Positions 9,629-32,622 of a stretch of 33,232 nt of DNA are shown here, piece after piece. The DNA comes from a virus. Each line of letters opens with the position of its first letter. Within the stretch, counting starts at the first letter, position 1. Both the position numbers and the translations under genes were made by a program. The notes under the pieces were generated by a model, which was given only the letters and a program-made list of their open reading frames with translations, was not told where the DNA came from and searched no databases. The stretch is taken from positions 1 to 33,232 of the IMG/VR virus record IMGVR_UViG_3300009537_000090; one strand, written 5' to 3'.

Positions 9629-10252
9629 TTAGTAAACGACTACGACGAGGTCAGGCTCGGTCGAACCAACAAGCGAGAACTTCATCAGCACTTCTTCGGC
9701 TGTGATGGTGTGCTTGAGGGCTGCTGCGGCCGTGCTGTCGACAGCGTACCACGTGGCACCACCGTCGGGTGAGCACTTGAGGGTCAGCGTGCCGCCACCA
9801 AAATCACCGTACGCCGCCCAGCCGATGGGGCTGAAATAGTCGCGCAGTGTTAAGATTTGGGAATCGCCGTCTACCAAGAAGGCTAAGTGATCGACCGTCT
9901 CGAACCGCAGCGCGGAGGCTTTCACAACGATGTCGAGTTCAGCAGAGTTCCCTGCACCCGGATTGGTGTCGCGTAAATCAAAGCGGATACGCGTGCAGCC
10001 ATACAGGGCCATGTGAGTTTTGAAGCTGTTGGCGGTGGCGGTCGTTATGACATCCGCACCGGGAACATCAAGCCACGTGGTCCCACCATCCGGTGAGGCC
10101 TGTAGCACTAAGTCCCCATCGTCAAAGTCAACTTCGGCTCCGAAGTAAACGTCTAAGTGAAACGCCGTACCAAGCGAACTGAGGTCGAGGGTGGGTGTGG
10201 CGGCTTCCGCCGTCAACGTGTCGAATACGTGGTAAAGAGTTGATTTGGACAT
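9629..10252 (-). CDS. Asp-box repeat protein, second tandem copy
   Basis: This 207-residue protein is a clear paralogue of the gene 11 nt upstream: both begin MSK-(A/S)-(S/T)-LYH-(A/V)-F and share LGTAFHxDVYFGA, FKTHxxLYGxTRIRF and SPxGWAAxG. It contains two Asp-box motifs, SPDGGTTW near residue 53 and SPDGGATW near residue 162, so the protein itself is an internal duplication of about 110 residues. Asp boxes (S-x-D-x-G-x-T-W) form beta-hairpin turns in beta-propeller and beta-sandwich folds. There is no enzymatic motif. Placement between capsid and tail tubular A suggests a virion surface or decoration protein, possibly a glycan binder; this is inference. AAGGTAACTCCCC precedes the ATG. Confidence 0.7.
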   Translation of the reverse strand: MSKSTLYHVFDTLTAEAATPTLDLSSLGTAFHLDVYFGAEVDFDDGDLVLQASPDGGTTWLDVPGADVITTATANSFKTHMALYGCTRIRFDLRDTNPGAGNSAELDIVVKASALRFETVDHLAFLVDGDSQILTLRDYFSPIGWAAYGDFGGGTLTLKCSPDGGATWYAVDSTAAAALKHTITAEEVLMKFSLVGSTEPDLVVVVY

Positions 10253-10263
10253 GGGGAGTTACC

Positions 10264-10875
10264 TTAGTAAACGCGGACGTTAATTGCGGGAGCAGAGGCG
10301 GCGCTGGCAAGCGTGAACTTGTACAGAATTTCTTCTGCCGATTCGGTGTGCTTGAGAGCGTTGGCGGAAGCGGAGTCCACGGCAAACCAAGTGGTCCCAC
10401 CGTCCGGTGAGCACTTGAGCGTAAGGACACCACTGTCCCACGTGCCCCACGCGGCCCAGCCCATGGGGCTTAGGCGGTCACGCATGGTGAACACAGCGGA
10501 GTCACCGTTGGCGATGAACGTGAATACCTTGACGGGCGCGTAGCGTAATCCGGTGGCCAACACAACGGGGTTAAGCGTCGGGGTGGTGGAACCTGCCAGC
10601 TTGAAGCGGATGCGCGTGGCACCGTACAGGTACAGATGAGTCTTGAACGTATTCGCGGTGGCGGCAGAGATCGCGGCGGCACCCGGAACGTCAACCCACG
10701 TGGTCCCACCGTCAGGTGAGGCCTGTAGTTGTAAGTTACCAGAGCCGAACGACACGCCCGCACCGAAATACACGTCAATGTGAAACGCCGTACCCAACGT
10801 GCTCAGGTCAACGGCCGCAGTGTTGCCGTCTGCTGAGAGTGTGGTGAAGGCGTGATAAAGGGATGCTTTGGACAT
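10264..10875 (-). CDS. Asp-box repeat protein, first tandem copy
   Basis: A 203-residue protein carrying two Asp boxes of identical sequence (SPDGGTTW, near residues 53 and 158), each followed by a similar V/A-D-x motif, which shows an internal duplication. Together with its downstream paralogue the pair holds four Asp boxes. Conserved blocks between the copies include TLGTAFHIDVYFGA, LQASPDGGTTW, TRIRF and LTLKCSPDGGTTW. It is translated from an ATG with AAGGTAACC upstream. It follows the major capsid gene, so it is probably made at high level from the same message. I do not recognise a named phage family; a head-decoration or head-fibre role is the best inference. Confidence 0.7.
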   Translation of the reverse strand: MSKASLYHAFTTLSADGNTAAVDLSTLGTAFHIDVYFGAGVSFGSGNLQLQASPDGGTTWVDVPGAAAISAATANTFKTHLYLYGATRIRFKLAGSTTPTLNPVVLATGLRYAPVKVFTFIANGDSAVFTMRDRLSPMGWAAWGTWDSGVLTLKCSPDGGTTWFAVDSASANALKHTESAEEILYKFTLASAASAPAINVRVY

Positions 10876-15079: not shown

Positions 15080-15133
15080 GTTCAGGACTGGGGGATTTCC
15101 ACGTTTTGTGAACAGCGGGGATTTCAGTAGGAG

Positions 15134-15165
15134 AAAAAACCCATCGGCTGCGGGAGTCGATGGGT
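15134..15165 (-). terminator. Rho-independent terminator at the entry of the virion module
   Basis: On the minus strand ACCCATCG pairs perfectly with CGATGGGT around an 11-nt loop, followed directly by TTTTTTCTCC. It lies only about 15-20 nt downstream of the promoter-like repeat at 15181-15205 and upstream of the virion genes. It could stop host polymerase coming from the middle genes, or define a very short transcript. Confidence 0.8.
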
Positions 15166-15180
15166 ATATAAGGAGACGTG

Positions 15181-15205
15181 GTAAAGCGTATATGGGTGTT
15201 GGGGG
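15181..15205 (-). promoter_or_regulatory. Putative phage RNAP promoter, third copy
   Basis: This sequence matches the 25-bp element at 26029 and 28612 in 19 of 25 positions. On the minus strand the shared core is CCCYAACACSCATATRY then GCTTYAC. It lies in the gap between the last middle gene and the virion module, where a class III promoter is expected. Recognition by the window's RNAP is inferred from repetition and placement. Confidence 0.65.
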
Positions 15206-19429: not shown

Positions 19430-19858
19430 TCAAAAGCGAAAGGGGATAATGATTTGTGTACCGATAACTCCGGTGTCTTTACCTCCCACCTCGAAGGGTG
19501 GAATGATGATCAGGCGGACAACACCGACGCGTACCGTGAGGGCCACCATCGGAACAACCGGGGCGTACTCGTAGCCGGTAACAGCACCGACCACCGCACC
19601 CACTTCGATTGACCCAACGTGTGCGAGGGGTAGGCCATACGAAACGTATGTGGTGGTGTGCCACTCACTGTTGTGATACGCGCCCACCTGCCAGCGTCCG
19701 CACTCCACGCCCGCGCCAAGGTTGTTCTCGTTACGCTCAATGTCACGGTTGAAGTGGTACGACGCGGTGTTGATCACCGGATTACAATCTGCAATCGCAA
19801 GGGTTGCACAGATGAAACTCAAGGCGAAAAGAATAACGAACGCGGAGAGTCGCGACAT
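19430..19858 (-). CDS. Secreted or outer-membrane barrel-like protein
   Basis: A 142-residue protein with a clear signal peptide (MSRLSAFVILFALSFICATLAIA, cleavage likely at AIA-D). The mature part has alternating strands: NTASYHFNRDIERNENNLGAGVECG, WQVGAYHNSEWHTTTYVSYG, GSIEVGAVVGAVTGYEYAP and GVVRLIIIPPFEVG, ending in IIIPFRF with a terminal Phe typical of outer-membrane barrels. The opening SYHF-x-R and GAYHNSE resemble small phage and bacterial barrel-like proteins related in style to lipid A-modifying enzymes, though I cannot confirm a catalytic set. It is out of place among replication genes. It may alter the host envelope, for instance superinfection exclusion. Shine-Dalgarno AGGAG is good. 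Confidence 0.65.
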   Translation of the reverse strand: MSRLSAFVILFALSFICATLAIADCNPVINTASYHFNRDIERNENNLGAGVECGRWQVGAYHNSEWHTTTYVSYGLPLAHVGSIEVGAVVGAVTGYEYAPVVPMVALTVRVGVVRLIIIPPFEVGGKDTGVIGTQIIIPFRF

Positions 19859-26028: not shown

Positions 26029-26053
26029 GTGAAGCACATATGCGTGTTAGGGT
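26029..26053 (-). promoter_or_regulatory. Putative phage RNAP promoter, second copy
   Basis: The element is identical over 25 bp to 28612-28636 and 19/25 like 15181-15205. On the minus strand it reads ACCCTAACACGCATATG then TGCTTCAC. It lies between the RNAP stop and the next gene. TAACACG recalls TAATACG of the T7 promoter. Confidence 0.75.
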
Positions 26054-26087: not shown

Positions 26088-28484
26088 TTAGGCAAAGAAA
26101 TACTCCGAGTCCTTGACCACCGCCAATTCCAAGCTGCCCATGGGCGGGGGTAGGGGTAACTCGATGCCGGGATTGGCCTGCATTAACTCGGCCCGGAGTA
26201 GACTCAGGGTGTCTACGCTGTACTGCTCGATGAATGCCTCGCGTAACTCCTCAGCCATCGTGTCTACATCTGCCGCCAGCGTGCCGTAGCTGTCATGAAT
26301 CATGGCAAACTCGGTGACACCACGATCTGCACAACGCAGTACCGTGATCATCAGGTGGGCGGCATCGTACGAGTGGATGAAGTTCGGGCTGACCCCGACG
26401 GCTTGCTTACGCTTGTCTACTTCCTGACTATCAAAGTCCAGCAGTTGGAGTGACGTACGCTTACCACCCACCATCACCGTGATACGCAAGTCACCCACCG
26501 GGCGGGAGTAGAGTTGTATCACCCGGAAACCCTGCGGTGCGGTCCACTGTACGTAGTGGCCAGCGTCCGCCACCTGCCGGGCCACGTCCTTTAACCACCC
26601 CATGGCCACACCCGCCGCTACCACAACACGGTCGATGGATGCCGCGATAACTTCCGCCACAAACTTACAACGCGGAAACATATCGTGTGCCTCACCCGCC
26701 TGCATGTGTCCTTCCTTCCGTAAGTAGTCGATGAGTTGATCACGCATTCCTGATTGAGTGACCCCGTACGGTACCGTCATCACCGCACGCTTCACGGTAG
26801 CGCGGGTAATCCCCAGCGTCAGCCACCATGCGGCATGGATGGACGCCTCCGTATCCTCACCCACCATGAGGCGTTTCAGTTCTTCCGTCACCACGTCCGC
26901 TACCTTCTGGTAAACGTCGTGGGGTTTATCACCGGGCACTAGGTTGGTGGCCATACCCCCAATCGGGTCACGCAAGATGGCTGAAAAATTTTGCAGCCCA
27001 TTACACGACCCATCGAGGGCAACCGGCAGCTTGGAGATGAAGGCATCACCTTGCACGGTGTACCCCATCCACTCGAAGCACGCCGCCAGCGCCTGCCACG
27101 GTGCATCGGCTTCGCACCAGAAGCGTTCACCATCCAGTGGGTTCATGGCAGCGTCGAGCAGCTTGGCTTCGTGGGCCTGCACCCACGCTACCCGTTCCTC
27201 GAAGGACACCTTGTCGATGCCGAAGAGGTTGGCGATATGTACCGCCAGCCAGTACGCACCGTTCTCCCCGAGCGGTTTGCCGTTGTGAAAGCGGAGCAGG
27301 GCACGGCCGGTGTCACTGGCCTGCGGGTGTAGCTCGGTCGAGACCGGATACATACGACCGCGCCAATCCAACGTGTGCACAAAGTACAACGGCGCTAAAT
27401 CAGTAAATTTCTCGGCGAGATACAGTTGTTGCATCACGGCGCCGCGCTTGGAAACCATACGCTGATTCTCCGCGTACACCAGCGCGGCCGCACGCCGCCA
27501 TATTTTGCGGGCGACTTCGTTCGTGGCAATGTCAACAGGCTTGGCCGGGAGCGGGGTTGATTCTTGACAGATCAAATCACCCACGGTCAGGCCGGCAGCC
27601 CATGCACTAGACATCACGTCGTACACCGAGCGATTGATTTCCCACTCGGTACGTTGCACGGCGTTGACGGCGGCGTAGGTGTTGGTGAGGTCGGCATCCC
27701 GCGCCACCGCTTCATACGTGGTCGGCTGATGTGTCTTGATCAGGTACGAGCGCAGCTTACGAAAGCCACCACTCCGTATGGATATCCACGGCGTGGGTGG
27801 CACGATCATCGGCATACCGAATGGCGCCAGCGCCGCGCAGCGCTCGTTCCATTGTGTCAGTTGCAGGGCCACCTCCGGGTTGAACACAAGGTGTGACTCT
27901 TTCTTGGTCACGCGTCGGTTAACCGTGTGGATATGGATGCCACCACCGGTGGCCTGCACCACCATGTCCAGCAGGGAAGCACCCAGCAACACACGGTTAC
28001 GGTTGAGTATGATAAAGGGTGTGCCGGCGTTCCGCACGGTGAAGCGGGTCACGGCCCGGCGGTGTCGCTCGGACTGGGACTTGGACAGACGCTTCTCGGT
28101 CCACGCCGCCAGCGCCGGGTCCACGGTCTGCCATTCAATATGCTCGATCACCAGCCCGGCAATGTTACCGGCGGCAGTGCCCATGCGCCGGCAGGAGAAG
28201 GCCGAGTCGATGGCACTACGCAGGGCGAGGAGGGCGATCTGTTTGGTATCCTGCCCGAGCAACAGGTTGGCCACGGCCACCCGCTTGCCGGCACGGCCGG
28301 CCTCGGCGATGACCATGAGGTCATCCAGTTCCTTGATCAGGTTCATAATCCACAGGCGCAGCAGGCGCTTGCCCGGTGGGGAGTCCGCCAGCCCACGCTC
28401 ATCCAGCAGGTCGTTGTACCGCTTGGTCCCAACCTCACGGGACTCCTCTTCCAAGGCCAGTTGAAGCTCTTCTCTGTCGATCAT
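26088..28484 (-). CDS. Single-subunit DNA-directed RNA polymerase, T7 gp1-like
   Basis: The preferred ATG at 28484 (GGAGAATCAG upstream) gives 798 residues; the open frame continues to 28541 without a ribosome-binding site. T7 RNAP has 883. Conserved elements, numbered from this start: DWRGRMYPV near 373; the first catalytic Asp at 491 (DGSCNGLQNFSAILRD); RATVKRAVMTVPYG with the O-helix Lys 565 and Tyr 573; HSYDAAHL near 704; and the second catalytic Asp at 731 (MIHDSYGT). It ends YFFA, like the FAFA foot of T7. The probable specificity loop is around residues 664-685. It should transcribe the promoter-like repeats. It lies between the attP region and the middle genes. Confidence 0.97.
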   Translation of the reverse strand: MIDREELQLALEEESREVGTKRYNDLLDERGLADSPPGKRLLRLWIMNLIKELDDLMVIAEAGRAGKRVAVANLLLGQDTKQIALLALRSAIDSAFSCRRMGTAAGNIAGLVIEHIEWQTVDPALAAWTEKRLSKSQSERHRRAVTRFTVRNAGTPFIILNRNRVLLGASLLDMVVQATGGGIHIHTVNRRVTKKESHLVFNPEVALQLTQWNERCAALAPFGMPMIVPPTPWISIRSGGFRKLRSYLIKTHQPTTYEAVARDADLTNTYAAVNAVQRTEWEINRSVYDVMSSAWAAGLTVGDLICQESTPLPAKPVDIATNEVARKIWRRAAALVYAENQRMVSKRGAVMQQLYLAEKFTDLAPLYFVHTLDWRGRMYPVSTELHPQASDTGRALLRFHNGKPLGENGAYWLAVHIANLFGIDKVSFEERVAWVQAHEAKLLDAAMNPLDGERFWCEADAPWQALAACFEWMGYTVQGDAFISKLPVALDGSCNGLQNFSAILRDPIGGMATNLVPGDKPHDVYQKVADVVTEELKRLMVGEDTEASIHAAWWLTLGITRATVKRAVMTVPYGVTQSGMRDQLIDYLRKEGHMQAGEAHDMFPRCKFVAEVIAASIDRVVVAAGVAMGWLKDVARQVADAGHYVQWTAPQGFRVIQLYSRPVGDLRITVMVGGKRTSLQLLDFDSQEVDKRKQAVGVSPNFIHSYDAAHLMITVLRCADRGVTEFAMIHDSYGTLAADVDTMAEELREAFIEQYSVDTLSLLRAELMQANPGIELPLPPPMGSLELAVVKDSEYFFA

Positions 28485-28524
28485 CTGATTCTCCATACAG
28501 TTGCAGGCGTGGAACTGATGAGGC

Positions 28525-28556
28525 AAAAAACGCCCCGTCATCCTATGAGGGTGACG
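28525..28556 (-). terminator. Weak terminator-like hairpin upstream of RNAP
   Basis: CGTCACCC and GGATGACG can pair (8 positions, one C/A mismatch on the minus-strand RNA, a G/U wobble on the plus-strand RNA), followed on the minus strand by GGGGCGTTTTTT. It sits between attP and the RNAP gene and could limit read-through from int or, in a lysogen, from the host tRNA. Confidence 0.35.
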
Positions 28557-28580
28557 AAGCGTGTGAATCTTACTTACACT

Positions 28581-28597
28581 CTTAGTGTGACACTAAG
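28581..28597. promoter_or_regulatory. Palindromic operator-like site
   Basis: CTTAGTGTGACACTAAG is a perfect 8-bp inverted repeat around a single central base. It is placed between the promoter-like element 28612-28636 and the RNAP start, ideal for a repressor of RNAP expression. Its centre contains the TGACAC motif repeated around attP. Confidence 0.55.
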
Positions 28598-28611
28598 GTG
28601 CACACTCAGGG

Positions 28612-28636
28612 GTGAAGCACATATGCGTGTTAGGGT
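28612..28636 (-). promoter_or_regulatory. Putative phage RNAP promoter, first copy
   Basis: Identical over 25 bp to 26029-26053. It lies about 130 nt upstream of the RNAP start, so the polymerase could be autoactivated. The match ends abruptly on both sides, as for a discrete protein-binding site. Confidence 0.7.
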
Positions 28637-28655
28637 CCCGCACTAGACCTGCGTG

Positions 28656-28670
28656 CACAGCGTGACACAC
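28656..28670. repeat. Direct repeat, attP arm copy A
   Basis: CACAGCGTGACACAC is repeated exactly at 28883-28897, on the other side of the attP core. Related TGACAC copies occur at 28588-28593 and 28816-28821. The spacing suggests integrase arm-type sites. An inverted GACACA/TGTGTC pair lies at 28664-28680. Confidence 0.6.
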
Positions 28671-28721
28671 ATTTTGTGTCCACAAACTTAAGAGACCAGA
28701 TGAGGATAGTGAGGTAAGCTA

Positions 28722-28780
28722 TGGTACCGAGGAGAGGACTTGAACCTCCACGAGCTTGCGCCCGCTAGCACCTGAATCTA
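28722..28780 (-). other. attP core: 3' portion of a tRNA-Leu(CAG)
   Basis: On the minus strand these 59 nt read as the 3' part of a tRNA-Leu: anticodon arm (TAGATTCAGGTGCTA, anticodon CAG), a long variable arm (GCGGGCGCAAGCTCGT), the T arm (GGAGG-TTCAAGT-CCTCT), the 3' acceptor strand CCTCGGT, and ACCA. The D arm and 5' acceptor strand are absent, so it is not a functional tRNA. It is the form of a phage attachment core that restores the host gene after integration. It starts about 120 nt beyond the integrase stop. An 8-bp inverted repeat (ACCAGATG at 28695-28702, CATCTGGT at 28786-28793) flanks it. Confidence 0.88.
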
Positions 28781-28882
28781 TCCCACATCTGGTATCATTG
28801 CAGTTCTACAACGGCTGACACACTGATTCAACAACTTAATGGTTCCGTTTCTGCAATGGTCTCATACACTTATGTTATAAAA

Positions 28883-28897
28883 CACAGCGTGACACAC
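28883..28897. repeat. Direct repeat, attP arm copy B
   Basis: An exact 15-bp copy of 28656-28670, one base short of the integrase stop codon. With copy A it brackets the attP core about 100 nt away on the int side and about 50 nt on the RNAP side. Confidence 0.6.
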
Positions 28898-29923
28898 TCA
28901 ACCCTGTGCGCGGCGTGCCAGCGGCAGCACGTTGCCACCCATGGGCACCCGCTCCAGCGCATCACGTGCACCGGCCAGCTTGCTCGGGTCAAGGTGGGCG
29001 TACCGCTCGGTGACCTTGATCGTGCTGTGCCCCAGCCACTGCTTGATGGTATACAGGTCGACACCCTCAGCCAGCAACCGGCTGGCGCAGGTGTGGCGCA
29101 GGGCGTGGCGGTTCACTTCCTTATCGAGACCGCAGGACTTTAGCGCCGCCTTCCAACGGTGAGCTATCGAGCCTTGTGTGATGCCAGCAAAGGCCGGACC
29201 ACCATTCACCACCCAGCGGGCGAGGGCGACGGCTACGCGTTTGGTCATGGGCACGCTACGGGTGCTACCGTTCTTCGTTTCCACGAAGGTCACGAGTCCG
29301 TTCTGCGTGCTCACGTCCCGGTGTGTCAGCCGCAGCGCCTCACTGAGACGGGCACCAGTGTCCACCAGTACCACGATCAGGTCCGCCATGATCTGCTGGC
29401 CGGTGTCCTCGAAGTAGATCACCAGTGCGTTCTCTTCATCACGGGTGACCACCCGCATGCGACCACGCGACTCGGGACGCTTGACCGGGAAGCGGGGCAG
29501 TTCATGCAGTCGCTGCTGGGCAGCGGCGTGGCGCAGCATGCGTTGCAGCGCCGCCACCTTGCGATTGATGGTGCCGGGTTTGTCCCCGCGTGCGTCCAGT
29601 TCCTTAATCCAATTCGAGATGGACGCTGCCGACACCATGCGAAGCGGAGTCTCGGCACCGAAGTGCTCCACTATCTGGCCGTAGGCATAGCGCACGATGG
29701 CGGCATACTTACGCCCGGTGTAATGCTCCACCAACACATCGTCGGCCGCCTGCTGGATGGTGTACTCCACCACCCCCAGCGGTTCGCCCGACTCTAGCCG
29801 GCGCAGCATGTCCCGCTCGCGCTTGGCTGCCTCCTGCTTGTCGCCCGTGCCCAGCGTGCGGCGCACCACTGTGCCGTCCGCGAGGCGTAGACGGGACCAC
29901 CATACAGTTCCGCGTTTATACAT
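28898..29923 (-). CDS. Tyrosine recombinase integrase
   Basis: A 341-residue integrase with the full catalytic set: R192 (DTGARLSEAL), K217 (VETKNGS), H273-x2-R276 (HALRHT), H299 (WLGHS) and the nucleophile Y308 (TERYAH). Residues 1-45 look like an N-terminal arm-binding strand region (MYKRGTVWWSRLRLADGTVV) and about 50-140 form the core-binding SAM-like domain. It would insert the phage at the host tRNA-Leu gene through the adjacent attP. It starts 2 nt after the stop of the MarR-like gene (AGGAGACTGACC before the ATG), so both are one operon. No separate excisionase is recognised, unless the small gene at 30248-30439 serves this role. Confidence 0.96.
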   Translation of the reverse strand: MYKRGTVWWSRLRLADGTVVRRTLGTGDKQEAAKRERDMLRRLESGEPLGVVEYTIQQAADDVLVEHYTGRKYAAIVRYAYGQIVEHFGAETPLRMVSAASISNWIKELDARGDKPGTINRKVAALQRMLRHAAAQQRLHELPRFPVKRPESRGRMRVVTRDEENALVIYFEDTGQQIMADLIVVLVDTGARLSEALRLTHRDVSTQNGLVTFVETKNGSTRSVPMTKRVAVALARWVVNGGPAFAGITQGSIAHRWKAALKSCGLDKEVNRHALRHTCASRLLAEGVDLYTIKQWLGHSTIKVTERYAHLDPSKLAGARDALERVPMGGNVLPLARRAQG

Positions 29924-29925
29924 GG

Positions 29926-30276
29926 TCAGTCTCCTATTGTGTTAACAAGTCCGTCAACATAATTTTTCCCTTTGGTCGTGAGACTAATCACGGTGAAGCG
30001 GCGGTCAGTCTCATCTTCCGTAGCGTCCAGCAATCCCAACCCGCTCGACCCATCAGCTTGCTTCCGGGCGGTCAGGCGGTGGACGTTGCGTGAGCAGGTC
30101 GACTTGGTCAGGCGCAGTGCCTTCTCAATGTCGGTCTGATACAACCGCTCACGCGCGGCCACCAACAACAACGTCTCCAACAGTTGCAACTCGGCTTGTC
30201 CATAATCCTCACCAAACTTCATCAACATCTTGACGAGGAGTGCAGCTTTATGTGCTGTACCTTTTTTTGGACTCAC
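29926..30276 (-). CDS. MarR-like winged-helix regulator
   Basis: A 116-residue protein starting at a GTG (AGGAG upstream, 8-nt spacing). The fold pattern is MarR-like: dimerisation helix (AHKAALLVKMLMKFGEDYGQ), ELQLLETLLLVAARERLYQT, the recognition helix DIEKALRLTKSTCSRNVHRL, and a wing ending DRRFTVISLTTKGKNYVDGL, whose R-x-x-x-I-x-L-T-x-x-G is typical. It is coupled to the integrase gene. A role as lysogeny repressor or in control of int is inferred from this linkage; the inverted repeats at 30535-30574 and the palindrome at 28581-28597 are possible targets. Confidence 0.8.
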   Translation of the reverse strand: MSPKKGTAHKAALLVKMLMKFGEDYGQAELQLLETLLLVAARERLYQTDIEKALRLTKSTCSRNVHRLTARKQADGSSGLGLLDATEDETDRRFTVISLTTKGKNYVDGLVNTIGD

Positions 30277-30441: not shown

Positions 30442-30507
30442 TCAACCCTCAATGTTAGGCGGGGCGGTTCCGACTATTCGAGTCGGTAGGGAATCGGCCC
30501 GCCGCAT
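30442..30507 (-). CDS. Possible leader peptide with internal hairpin
   Basis: A 21-codon ORF (MRRADSLPTRIVGTAPPNIE then G, stop) begins at an ATG with AAGGG 7 nt upstream; an ATG at 30528 would extend it to 28 codons. Its stop TGA is embedded in TTGACTGTG at the start of the next gene. The long hairpin 30458-30503 lies within it, so ribosome progress would open or close the structure. It may be a translational attenuator for the lysogeny operon. Confidence 0.4.
   Translation of the reverse strand: MRRADSLPTRIVGTAPPNIEG
30458..30503. repeat. Long imperfect inverted repeat
   Basis: GGCGGG pairs with CCCGCC; inside, CG-G-TTCC can pair with GGGAA-T-CG, and an inner CCGACT/AGTCGG stem with loop ATTCG competes for the middle pairs. 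No U run follows on either strand, so it is not a standard terminator. It is the most structured segment of the early leader. Confidence 0.65.
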
Positions 30508-30650
30508 GTTCAATCCCTTGTCCCACATCTCCTATGAATGTTATCACTGTCATTCACTTATTGTTGCATGAATGAAGTGGTCGCGCTACCGAAACAGTCC
30601 GTACTGTAGCGATTCAATAGCAAGCAAGTTTCATACCTGACAGCCTTGCT
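30508..30650 (-). promoter_or_regulatory. Intergenic control region upstream of lysogeny operon
   Basis: About 140 nt without a gene. It holds TGAATG (30535), CATTCA (30551) and TGAATG (30569): one half-site three times, in alternating orientation, separated by 10 and 12 nt. They are operator-like and the segment is AT-richer than the rest. A short ACAGT/ACTGT hairpin lies just upstream of them in reading direction. No convincing -35/-10 pair is obvious. Confidence 0.5.
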
Positions 30651-31821: not shown

Positions 31822-31908
31822 TTAAGGGCTGAGAAATTGAACGGCGAACCATGCCAGCAGCATGATCTGCCCGAGTAACAACATGTCATTTATATATTCC
31901 ACGGTCAT
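31822..31908 (-). CDS. 28-residue membrane peptide (early)
   Basis: MTVEYINDMLLLGQIMLLAW then FAVQFLSP: one hydrophobic helix. Its ATG overlaps the SprT-like gene stop (ATGA) and ACGGAGGT is immediately upstream; a GTG two codons later has better spacing. Its end lies just before the Shine-Dalgarno of the next gene. Confidence 0.5.
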   Translation of the reverse strand: MTVEYINDMLLLGQIMLLAWFAVQFLSP

Positions 31909-32420
31909 ACCTCCGTATGCTTGGGTTTAGGGATAAGAGGGGACCGGCACCGAGTGCACCGGTACACCGCGCCACGCCCGATCTTGCGATGGCGCACGAT
32001 GCCCAGCGGGAAGTCGCGGTTACACGCGCAGGTGTATATAAACTTACGCGTCCGGCGTACCTCCGCGTTGGCCGTGTCGTATGAATGACAGCGGCGCGGC
32101 TCCACACCTAATGCCCGCATAACGTGCTGCCACAGGCGGCCGTGCGCTCGCTCACCGGGACGCGTGAGGTTGGTCACGAAGTGGGCGTATTCGTGGGGCA
32201 CAGTCTGCTGCAAGTACTCGGCCTCATTCTCGCGTGCCAGTACTTCATTCACGCGCATGATGCACTGCCCCGTTTGCAGGTTGGTGCGTGCCATACCGGC
32301 CACCTGTCCGCGCAGATCGAATACCACCCTGACCGAGTTAGGCCGCACGAAGGATTTACCCCACAGCAGGGATGAACACTCTGCAATGCGTGCCTCAATT
32401 TTCTGCAACAGCGTTTCCAT
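31905..32420 (-). CDS. SprT-like zinc metalloprotease
   Basis: 171 residues from the ATG at 32420 (AAGGGGGA upstream; a GTG at 32441 is less likely). The catalytic HEYAH (H-E-x-x-H) is in VPHEYAHFVTN, followed by HGRLWQHVMRALGVEPRRCH, the next conserved helix of SprT/Spartan-type peptidases. A C-terminal zinc ribbon is formed by YTCACN and YRCTRC. Early SprT-like genes are common in T7-like phages; they may remove host DNA-bound proteins or modify regulators. It is the best-recognised gene of the early block. Confidence 0.9.
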   Translation of the reverse strand: METLLQKIEARIAECSSLLWGKSFVRPNSVRVVFDLRGQVAGMARTNLQTGQCIMRVNEVLARENEAEYLQQTVPHEYAHFVTNLTRPGERAHGRLWQHVMRALGVEPRRCHSYDTANAEVRRTRKFIYTCACNRDFPLGIVRHRKIGRGAVYRCTRCRSPLIPKPKHTEV

Positions 32421-32430
32421 GTGGTCCCCC

Positions 32431-32622
32431 TTACCGGTCACGGTCCGGCGCTTCGGCCGGGTTAAAGTCGATTAGATACAGGTCCGAGACACGCTCGAAT
32501 CGGTCATACAATTTTTCGTATGCCTCACTGGTGCAACAGGCGCTGACCGTGTGCGTGTGCTGCTCGCACGCACCCAGCGTCCAGAGTGGCACGCCCCTGA
32601 ATTGGAAGGTGTACTGATTCAT
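32431..32622 (-). CDS. Small early protein with paired cysteines
   Basis: 63 residues from the coupled ATG at 32622 (GGGGGAAACAAGC upstream): MNQYTFQFRGVPLWTLGACE, with a later ACCTSEAYEKLYDRFERVSD and an end DFNPAEAPDRDR. The three cysteines do not form an obvious zinc site. Predicted beta hairpin then helix. Unknown function. Confidence 0.65.
   Translation of the reverse strand: MNQYTFQFRGVPLWTLGACEQHTHTVSACCTSEAYEKLYDRFERVSDLYLIDFNPAEAPDRDR

Follow-up and report, generated by a model that had tools for sequence, protein, structure and literature searches.

Phages related to T7 were long regarded as strictly lytic, and a T7-like phage that can integrate raises the question of how its lysogen silences an RNA polymerase (RNAP) that amplifies its own expression. 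We addressed this with a 33,232-base record from IMG/VR (IMGVR_UViG_3300009537_000090, positions 1–33,232; this whole stretch is called the window below). It encodes a T7-like phage in which the genes of the module in question all lie on the minus strand, in the order small early genes, a marR-like gene, a tyrosine integrase gene (int), a piece of a tRNA-Leu(CAG) gene, a 237-nt control region and the RNAP gene. We consider it probable that the phage is temperate and that this module governs both its lysogeny and the start of its lytic program, that silencing depends on a terminator together with repression of the RNAP's own promoter, and that separation of RNAP from the early genes by integration is one layer of this control.

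The window has several features of temperate T7-like phages, that is, Autographiviridae with an integrase. These are a single-subunit RNAP, replication and structural genes of T7 type in the expected order, a marR-like gene and a tyrosine integrase gene preceding RNAP, and a phage attachment site (attP) that matches a tRNA gene. The RNAP gene (26088–28484, minus strand; Pfam RNA_pol, 7.5e-112) encodes a T7-type polymerase that conserves the catalytic positions D510, K584, Y592 and D750 and is 36.7% identical to the RNAP of Caulobacter phage S2B. Its ATG at 28484 is preceded by GGAG; an alternative start at 28541 was rejected because it falls inside a hairpin. The int gene (28898–29923, minus strand; Pfam Phage_integrase, 5e-26) retains the catalytic residues R192, R276, H299 and Y308, and no close relatives of it were found in IMG/VR. 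Adjoining int on its upstream side is the marR-like winged-helix gene (29926–30276, minus strand), which matches Pfam MarR_2 (6e-7) and the transcriptional regulator family PHROG 9665 (3e-20) and is a candidate repressor or, alternatively, a candidate excisionase. Homologues occupy the same position in phages CRP-125, CRP-171, LUZ100 and P-SSP7 and in a Methylovorus prophage. Non-coding DNA upstream of the marR-like gene contains a large hairpin (30450–30520) that is stronger on the plus strand (z –3.0) and had no match in Rfam. As a separate observation, two contigs of a Vampirovibrionales metagenome-assembled genome carry three (L030, 8349–9752) and two (L046, 6181–7017) tandem marR-like genes directly upstream of a T7-like RNAP gene, with no integrase match at either locus.

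The attP core (28722–28776, minus strand) is the 3' part of tRNA-Leu(CAG), 55 nt running from TTCAGGT in the anticodon loop to the terminal CCA. It points towards RNAP, with 237 nt between the CCA and the ATG. This agrees with the original prediction for this locus, made from the sequence alone, that int, a tRNA-Leu-like core and RNAP read the same way with the core directed at RNAP. That prediction included neither the marR-like gene upstream of int nor a 25-nt exact repeat between the core and RNAP. By manual count, 50 of the 55 nt are identical to a bacterial tRNA-Leu(CAG) (L183) and the differences in the variable arm preserve pairing of its stem, so the match is not due to chance. ARAGORN found no complete tRNA in the window, and we therefore rejected the idea that the fragment is a complete phage tRNA. 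The core was also rejected as a terminator since it has no T-run. Two exact direct copies of a 15-nt repeat, GTGTGTCACGCTGTG, flank the core at distances of about 106 and 51 nt: one adjoins the int stop codon (28883–28897, minus strand) and the other is on the RNAP side (28656–28670, minus strand). No further copy with fewer than two mismatches occurs in the window.

Three candidate control elements lie between the core and RNAP. The first is the 25-nt sequence ACCCTAACACGCATATGTGCTTCAC (28612–28636, minus strand), a candidate promoter for the phage RNAP. The window contains two exact copies of it, the second being just after RNAP (26029–26053, minus strand), where LUZ100 has its promoter phi2. 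A diverged third copy with mismatches at 6 of 25 positions is ahead of the structural genes (15181–15205, minus strand). Just downstream of the promoter candidate is CTTAGTGTGACACTAAG (28581–28597), a 17-nt perfect palindrome and candidate repressor operator. Last, immediately before RNAP, is a hairpin followed by T6 that resembles an intrinsic terminator (28525–28562, minus strand); the hairpin itself (28562–28530) has a predicted energy of –19.6 kcal/mol (z –4.7) and none of 25 shuffles was as good. A palindrome and a weak hairpin had been proposed here, and both are real. The hairpin is strong, however, and the palindrome is the sole perfect one with arms of at least 8 nt in the whole window. 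Rfam returned no matches. Behind the third promoter copy there is likewise a hairpin that resembles a terminator and ends in a T-run (15110–15205, minus strand; –13.4 kcal/mol, z –1.9), the same promoter-then-terminator order as upstream of RNAP.

Both the candidate promoter and the predicted terminator have counterparts in relatives and in LUZ100, where promoter phi1 and terminator T4 were mapped. Terminator-like hairpins of –14 kcal/mol or better within 300 nt upstream of RNAP were found in 27 of 110 relatives, compared to 10 in a set of 440 shuffles and 4 in 110 control stretches internal to the RNAP gene. Repeats occur upstream of RNAP in loci L019, L021, L023, L027 and L045 and in phages CRP-125 and CRP-171, usually with a further copy about 2.5 kb later.

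To see how such modules are arranged after integration, we sought RNAP relatives in bacterial genomes. In 26 relatives an integrase match is about 37–44 kb downstream of RNAP and on its strand, and the lengths of the contigs confirm that the two genes share one contig. Integration between int and RNAP, which places the two at opposite ends of the prophage as the original prediction proposed, is therefore widespread in this group. The position of the intact host tRNA varies among the prophages in which a tRNA attachment (att) repeat was resolved, and it falls into three classes. In class A the intact tRNA is on the RNAP side and reads in the same direction as RNAP. This class has three prophages, in Methylovorus (tRNA-Leu, 60-bp repeat), Marinicella (tRNA-Phe, 56 bp) and Caulobacter (tRNA-Ser, 19 bp). 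Nine prophages form class B, where the intact tRNA lies at the same end as int and converges with it; the genes used are tRNA-Leu (three Rhodanobacter and one Stenotrophomonas), tRNA-His (two), tRNA-Cys (two Xanthobacter) and tRNA-Ser (one Novosphingobium). In class C, seen in Rhodopseudomonas (tRNA-Leu) and Aminobacter (tRNA-Cys), it is the 5' half of the tRNA that is repeated, and the complete gene lies at the int end, oriented like int; transcription from the host tRNA promoter would here head for RNAP. The attP motifs of the cyanophages likewise correspond to the first half of tRNA-Leu (PMC8776855). The core in the window is of the class A type. Given the nine class B prophages, read-through from a tRNA into RNAP is lineage-specific, and the proposal that RNAP lies behind an intact host tRNA holds for class A relatives such as Methylovorus but not for class B. 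The idea that the terminator serves specifically to block tRNA read-through is also weakened, because class B prophages, in which no tRNA reads in, often carry one too. Separately, one viral contig (L002, 1–412) starts about 400 nt before RNAP and carries an antisense tRNA-His 3' fragment, as in class B, and may begin at a trimmed provirus end.

The closest picture of the integrated state comes from the prophage of Methylovorus sp. MM2 (L014, L170, L191, L192). At one end are the tRNA-Leu, a phage promoter, repeated AGTGTTAC-type sites, a terminator and RNAP, which is about 0.2 kb behind the intact tRNA. At the other end are the marR-like gene, int, a second copy of the 60-bp att repeat 146 nt beyond int, and the host gene tig. 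Four copies of a motif like GGGATAAACACCCACTGTAGGA, similar to the T7 promoter, are present in this prophage, and AGTGTTAC-type sites stand beside three of the four, including promoters about 15 and 35 kb from that of RNAP. The prophage has the class A geometry that is predicted for the window phage, and its marR-like gene and int are at the far end, but its RNAP is only 39% identical and its attachment gene is a tRNA-Leu(UAG) beside tig rather than tRNA-Leu(CAG). In the Marinicella prophage, between its intact tRNA-Phe and RNAP (L023, 9653–10001), is a strong sigma70-type promoter, TTGACT-17-TATGAT, with a score of 12.7 that 1% of shuffles equal; this region is without a terminator. The spacer of that promoter contains a short inverted repeat, and the integrase frame of this prophage has two in-frame TGA stops.

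From these data we propose the following sequence of events. During infection, host polymerase reading from the early region past the terminator would supply a little RNAP. Since RNAP has a candidate phage-type promoter of its own, this small amount would amplify itself by transcribing its own gene, as has been suggested for LUZ100. If the phage inserted into a host tRNA-Leu(CAG), the early region with marR and int would move to the far end and RNAP would be left about 0.24 kb behind the rebuilt tRNA, where host transcription could reach it only from that tRNA or from a local promoter. In either state, free or integrated, host transcription would meet the terminator before RNAP. Integration probably swaps only the upstream source of host transcription, and insertion alone probably does not switch RNAP off. 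Because the promoter, palindrome and terminator stay with RNAP after integration, silencing probably depends on the terminator and on repression of the promoter. Any leakage of RNAP would be self-amplifying unless that promoter, which remains with RNAP, were repressed. Repression is the likely second lock, given the conserved marR-like neighbor of int, the palindrome at the promoter and the similar sites in Methylovorus; the MarR-like protein, binding close to the RNAP promoter, would be the probable repressor.

Several points weigh against this proposal. The promoter, operator and terminator are predicted only from sequence here, as is the repressor, and the other promoter copies in the window have no such operator-like palindrome beside them. 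A weak sigma70-like site, TTCACA-16-TAGGAT (28567–28540), shares sequence with the terminator and might let host polymerase start transcription of RNAP; the best host-promoter site between the core and RNAP scores 8.9, which 7% of shuffles equal. While the search of bacterial genomes for prophages with int and RNAP at opposite ends yielded relatives, it did not yield the prophage of the window phage or its exact host tRNA. An exact search for part of the core in IMG/VR found nothing, the core was absent from the 398 Pseudomonadota genomes searched (the nearest sequence had one mismatch in the last 29 nt), and there was no match among 146 genomes of one order. Lastly, stable lysogeny was not seen in T7-like cyanophages whose genes are in this order (PMC8776855), so the window phage may not form lysogens either.

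A different function for some of these elements is a lesser but real possibility, namely that integrase (at arm sites) or an excisionase, rather than a repressor, binds the palindrome and the 15-nt repeats, and that the MarR-like protein is an excisionase. Two exact repeats, one on each side of the core, are placed as arm sites would be, and winged-helix excisionases exist (RdfS, PMC11963761). However, the MarR_2 and PHROG matches of the protein point to a transcriptional regulator, and the Methylovorus AGTGTTAC-type sites also stand beside phage promoters about 15 and 35 kb from the one at RNAP, which fits a regulator better.

We regard as rather doubtful the stronger idea that the module is a state-dependent switch on the phage RNAP, in which transcription into RNAP would change from early-operon to tRNA read-through, the terminator and repressor would set the threshold for induction, and tRNA orientation (class A, B or C) would set leakiness. 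Two features of such switches can be compared with our data: an element-borne terminator before the key gene is predicted at 28562–28525, and the geometry required for integration to swap the upstream promoter is present in class A relatives. The recurrent order of att, control elements and RNAP, together with natural variation in tRNA orientation among the 26 prophages, provides a set in which this can be tested. If tRNA read-through matters, RNAP leakage and induction rate should differ between prophages with and without a tRNA reading into RNAP.

It is unlikely, in our estimation, that integration is a transient side path of an essentially lytic phage and that it makes no difference to regulation where attP lies. 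P-SSP7 shares the order marR-int-attP-RNAP, and it and S-TIP37 integrate but stable lysogens of them were not found (PMC8776855); LUZ100 also yielded no stable lysogens (PMC10134795). On the other hand, many related prophages reside in bacterial chromosomes and still have two intact att copies, and the control elements on the RNAP side recur in unrelated lineages.

Slightly less probable again is the mechanism put forward in the original prediction, where the act of integration is the switch: RNAP would fall silent once parted from the early operon and would then need tRNA read-through, and excision alone would restore its expression. The predicted geometry is real in relatives, the window has no convincing host promoter between the core and RNAP, and Tn916 shows that physical separation can be the main form of control (PMC11658703). 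An autonomous host-type promoter between the core and RNAP, active in lysogens, was named in advance as evidence against this mechanism. The Marinicella prophage has a strong sigma70-type promoter at that place, but only the weak overlapping site is present in the window, so the mechanism keeps some chance for this phage. Yet recombination would not by itself cut the lytic cascade if the candidate phage promoter lies on the RNAP side of attP and stays there, and read-through from the early genes is already attenuated in the free phage by T4 in LUZ100, as it would be here by the 28562–28530 hairpin. Nor is dependence of RNAP on tRNA read-through borne out, for most relatives whose att site at a tRNA could be resolved, including all of class B, have no intact tRNA that reads into RNAP. 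The cyanophages that integrate without stable lysogeny also argue against integration as a sufficient switch. Integration-dependent immunity of the mycobacteriophage BPs type, in which attP is inside the repressor gene and integration alters the repressor (PMC4557955), was rejected because the core here does not fall within the marR-like gene but separates int from RNAP.

The remainder of the window encodes SSB, a RusA-like nuclease, primase/helicase, DNA polymerase, an exonuclease, a head-tail adaptor, scaffold, capsid and tail proteins. Between the DNA polymerase and the primase region is a gene (19430–19858, minus strand) that matches PHROG 3600 (PagP-like lipid A acylation, antimicrobial peptide resistance; E 1e-18), an unusual cargo for a T7-like phage. 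The capsid gene is followed by two neighboring genes, each about 205 codons long (9629–10875, minus strand), which are diverged tandem duplicates with 71–73% DNA identity in two blocks. The early region includes an SprT-like metalloprotease with a zinc ribbon (31905–32441, minus strand; Pfam, 9e-13).

The gene order and integration at tRNA-Leu are already known from cyanophages, SAR11 phages and Rhizobium phages. In the part of the literature on such systems that was covered, we found no statement about the consequence of integration for a phage RNAP, and we consider the comparative result on integrated geometry in relatives to be moderately interesting. P-SSP7 and S-TIP37, for both of which site-specific integration was shown by PCR, have the order marR-like gene, int, attP in tRNA-Leu and T7-like RNAP seen in the window, but their attP matches the first half of the tRNA-Leu whereas that of the window is the 3' part (PMC8776855). 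LUZ100 also has a marR-int operon upstream of RNAP, a terminator between int and RNAP, and phage promoters directly upstream of (phi1) and after (phi2) RNAP, and most transcripts of the free phage end after int, where T4 was mapped (PMC10134795). It differs in having a whole tRNA-Leu between marR and int, in the order of its elements, with T4 before the phage promoter while the window's terminator follows it, and in that its elements were mapped by transcriptomics (PMC10134795), whereas those of the window are predicted. The Roseobacter phages CRP-125 and CRP-171 share MarR, int, a gap of about 250 nt with a terminator and a repeated promoter-like motif, RNAP and SSB with the window, although the RNAP of CRP-125 is only 34% identical. 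Prophages of Pelagibacter and Fonsibacter are T7-like and also attach at a tRNA-Leu, in their case (UAG), but use a short 11-bp core and a phage-borne replacement tRNA-Leu (PMC6811365).

Outside phages, the nearest parallels are Tn916 and ICEKp1, in which, as proposed here, integration changes the promoter upstream of a key gene (PMC11658703, PMC13023037). For int of ICEKp1, transcription enters from the host tRNA promoter and is attenuated by a stem-loop (PMC13023037). In Tn916 an end terminator insulates the element, and recombination-dependent transcription is established (PMC11658703). Unlike the window, these are conjugative elements in which control of int or transfer genes was determined by experiment, whereas the gene that would be controlled in this phage is the one for its RNAP.

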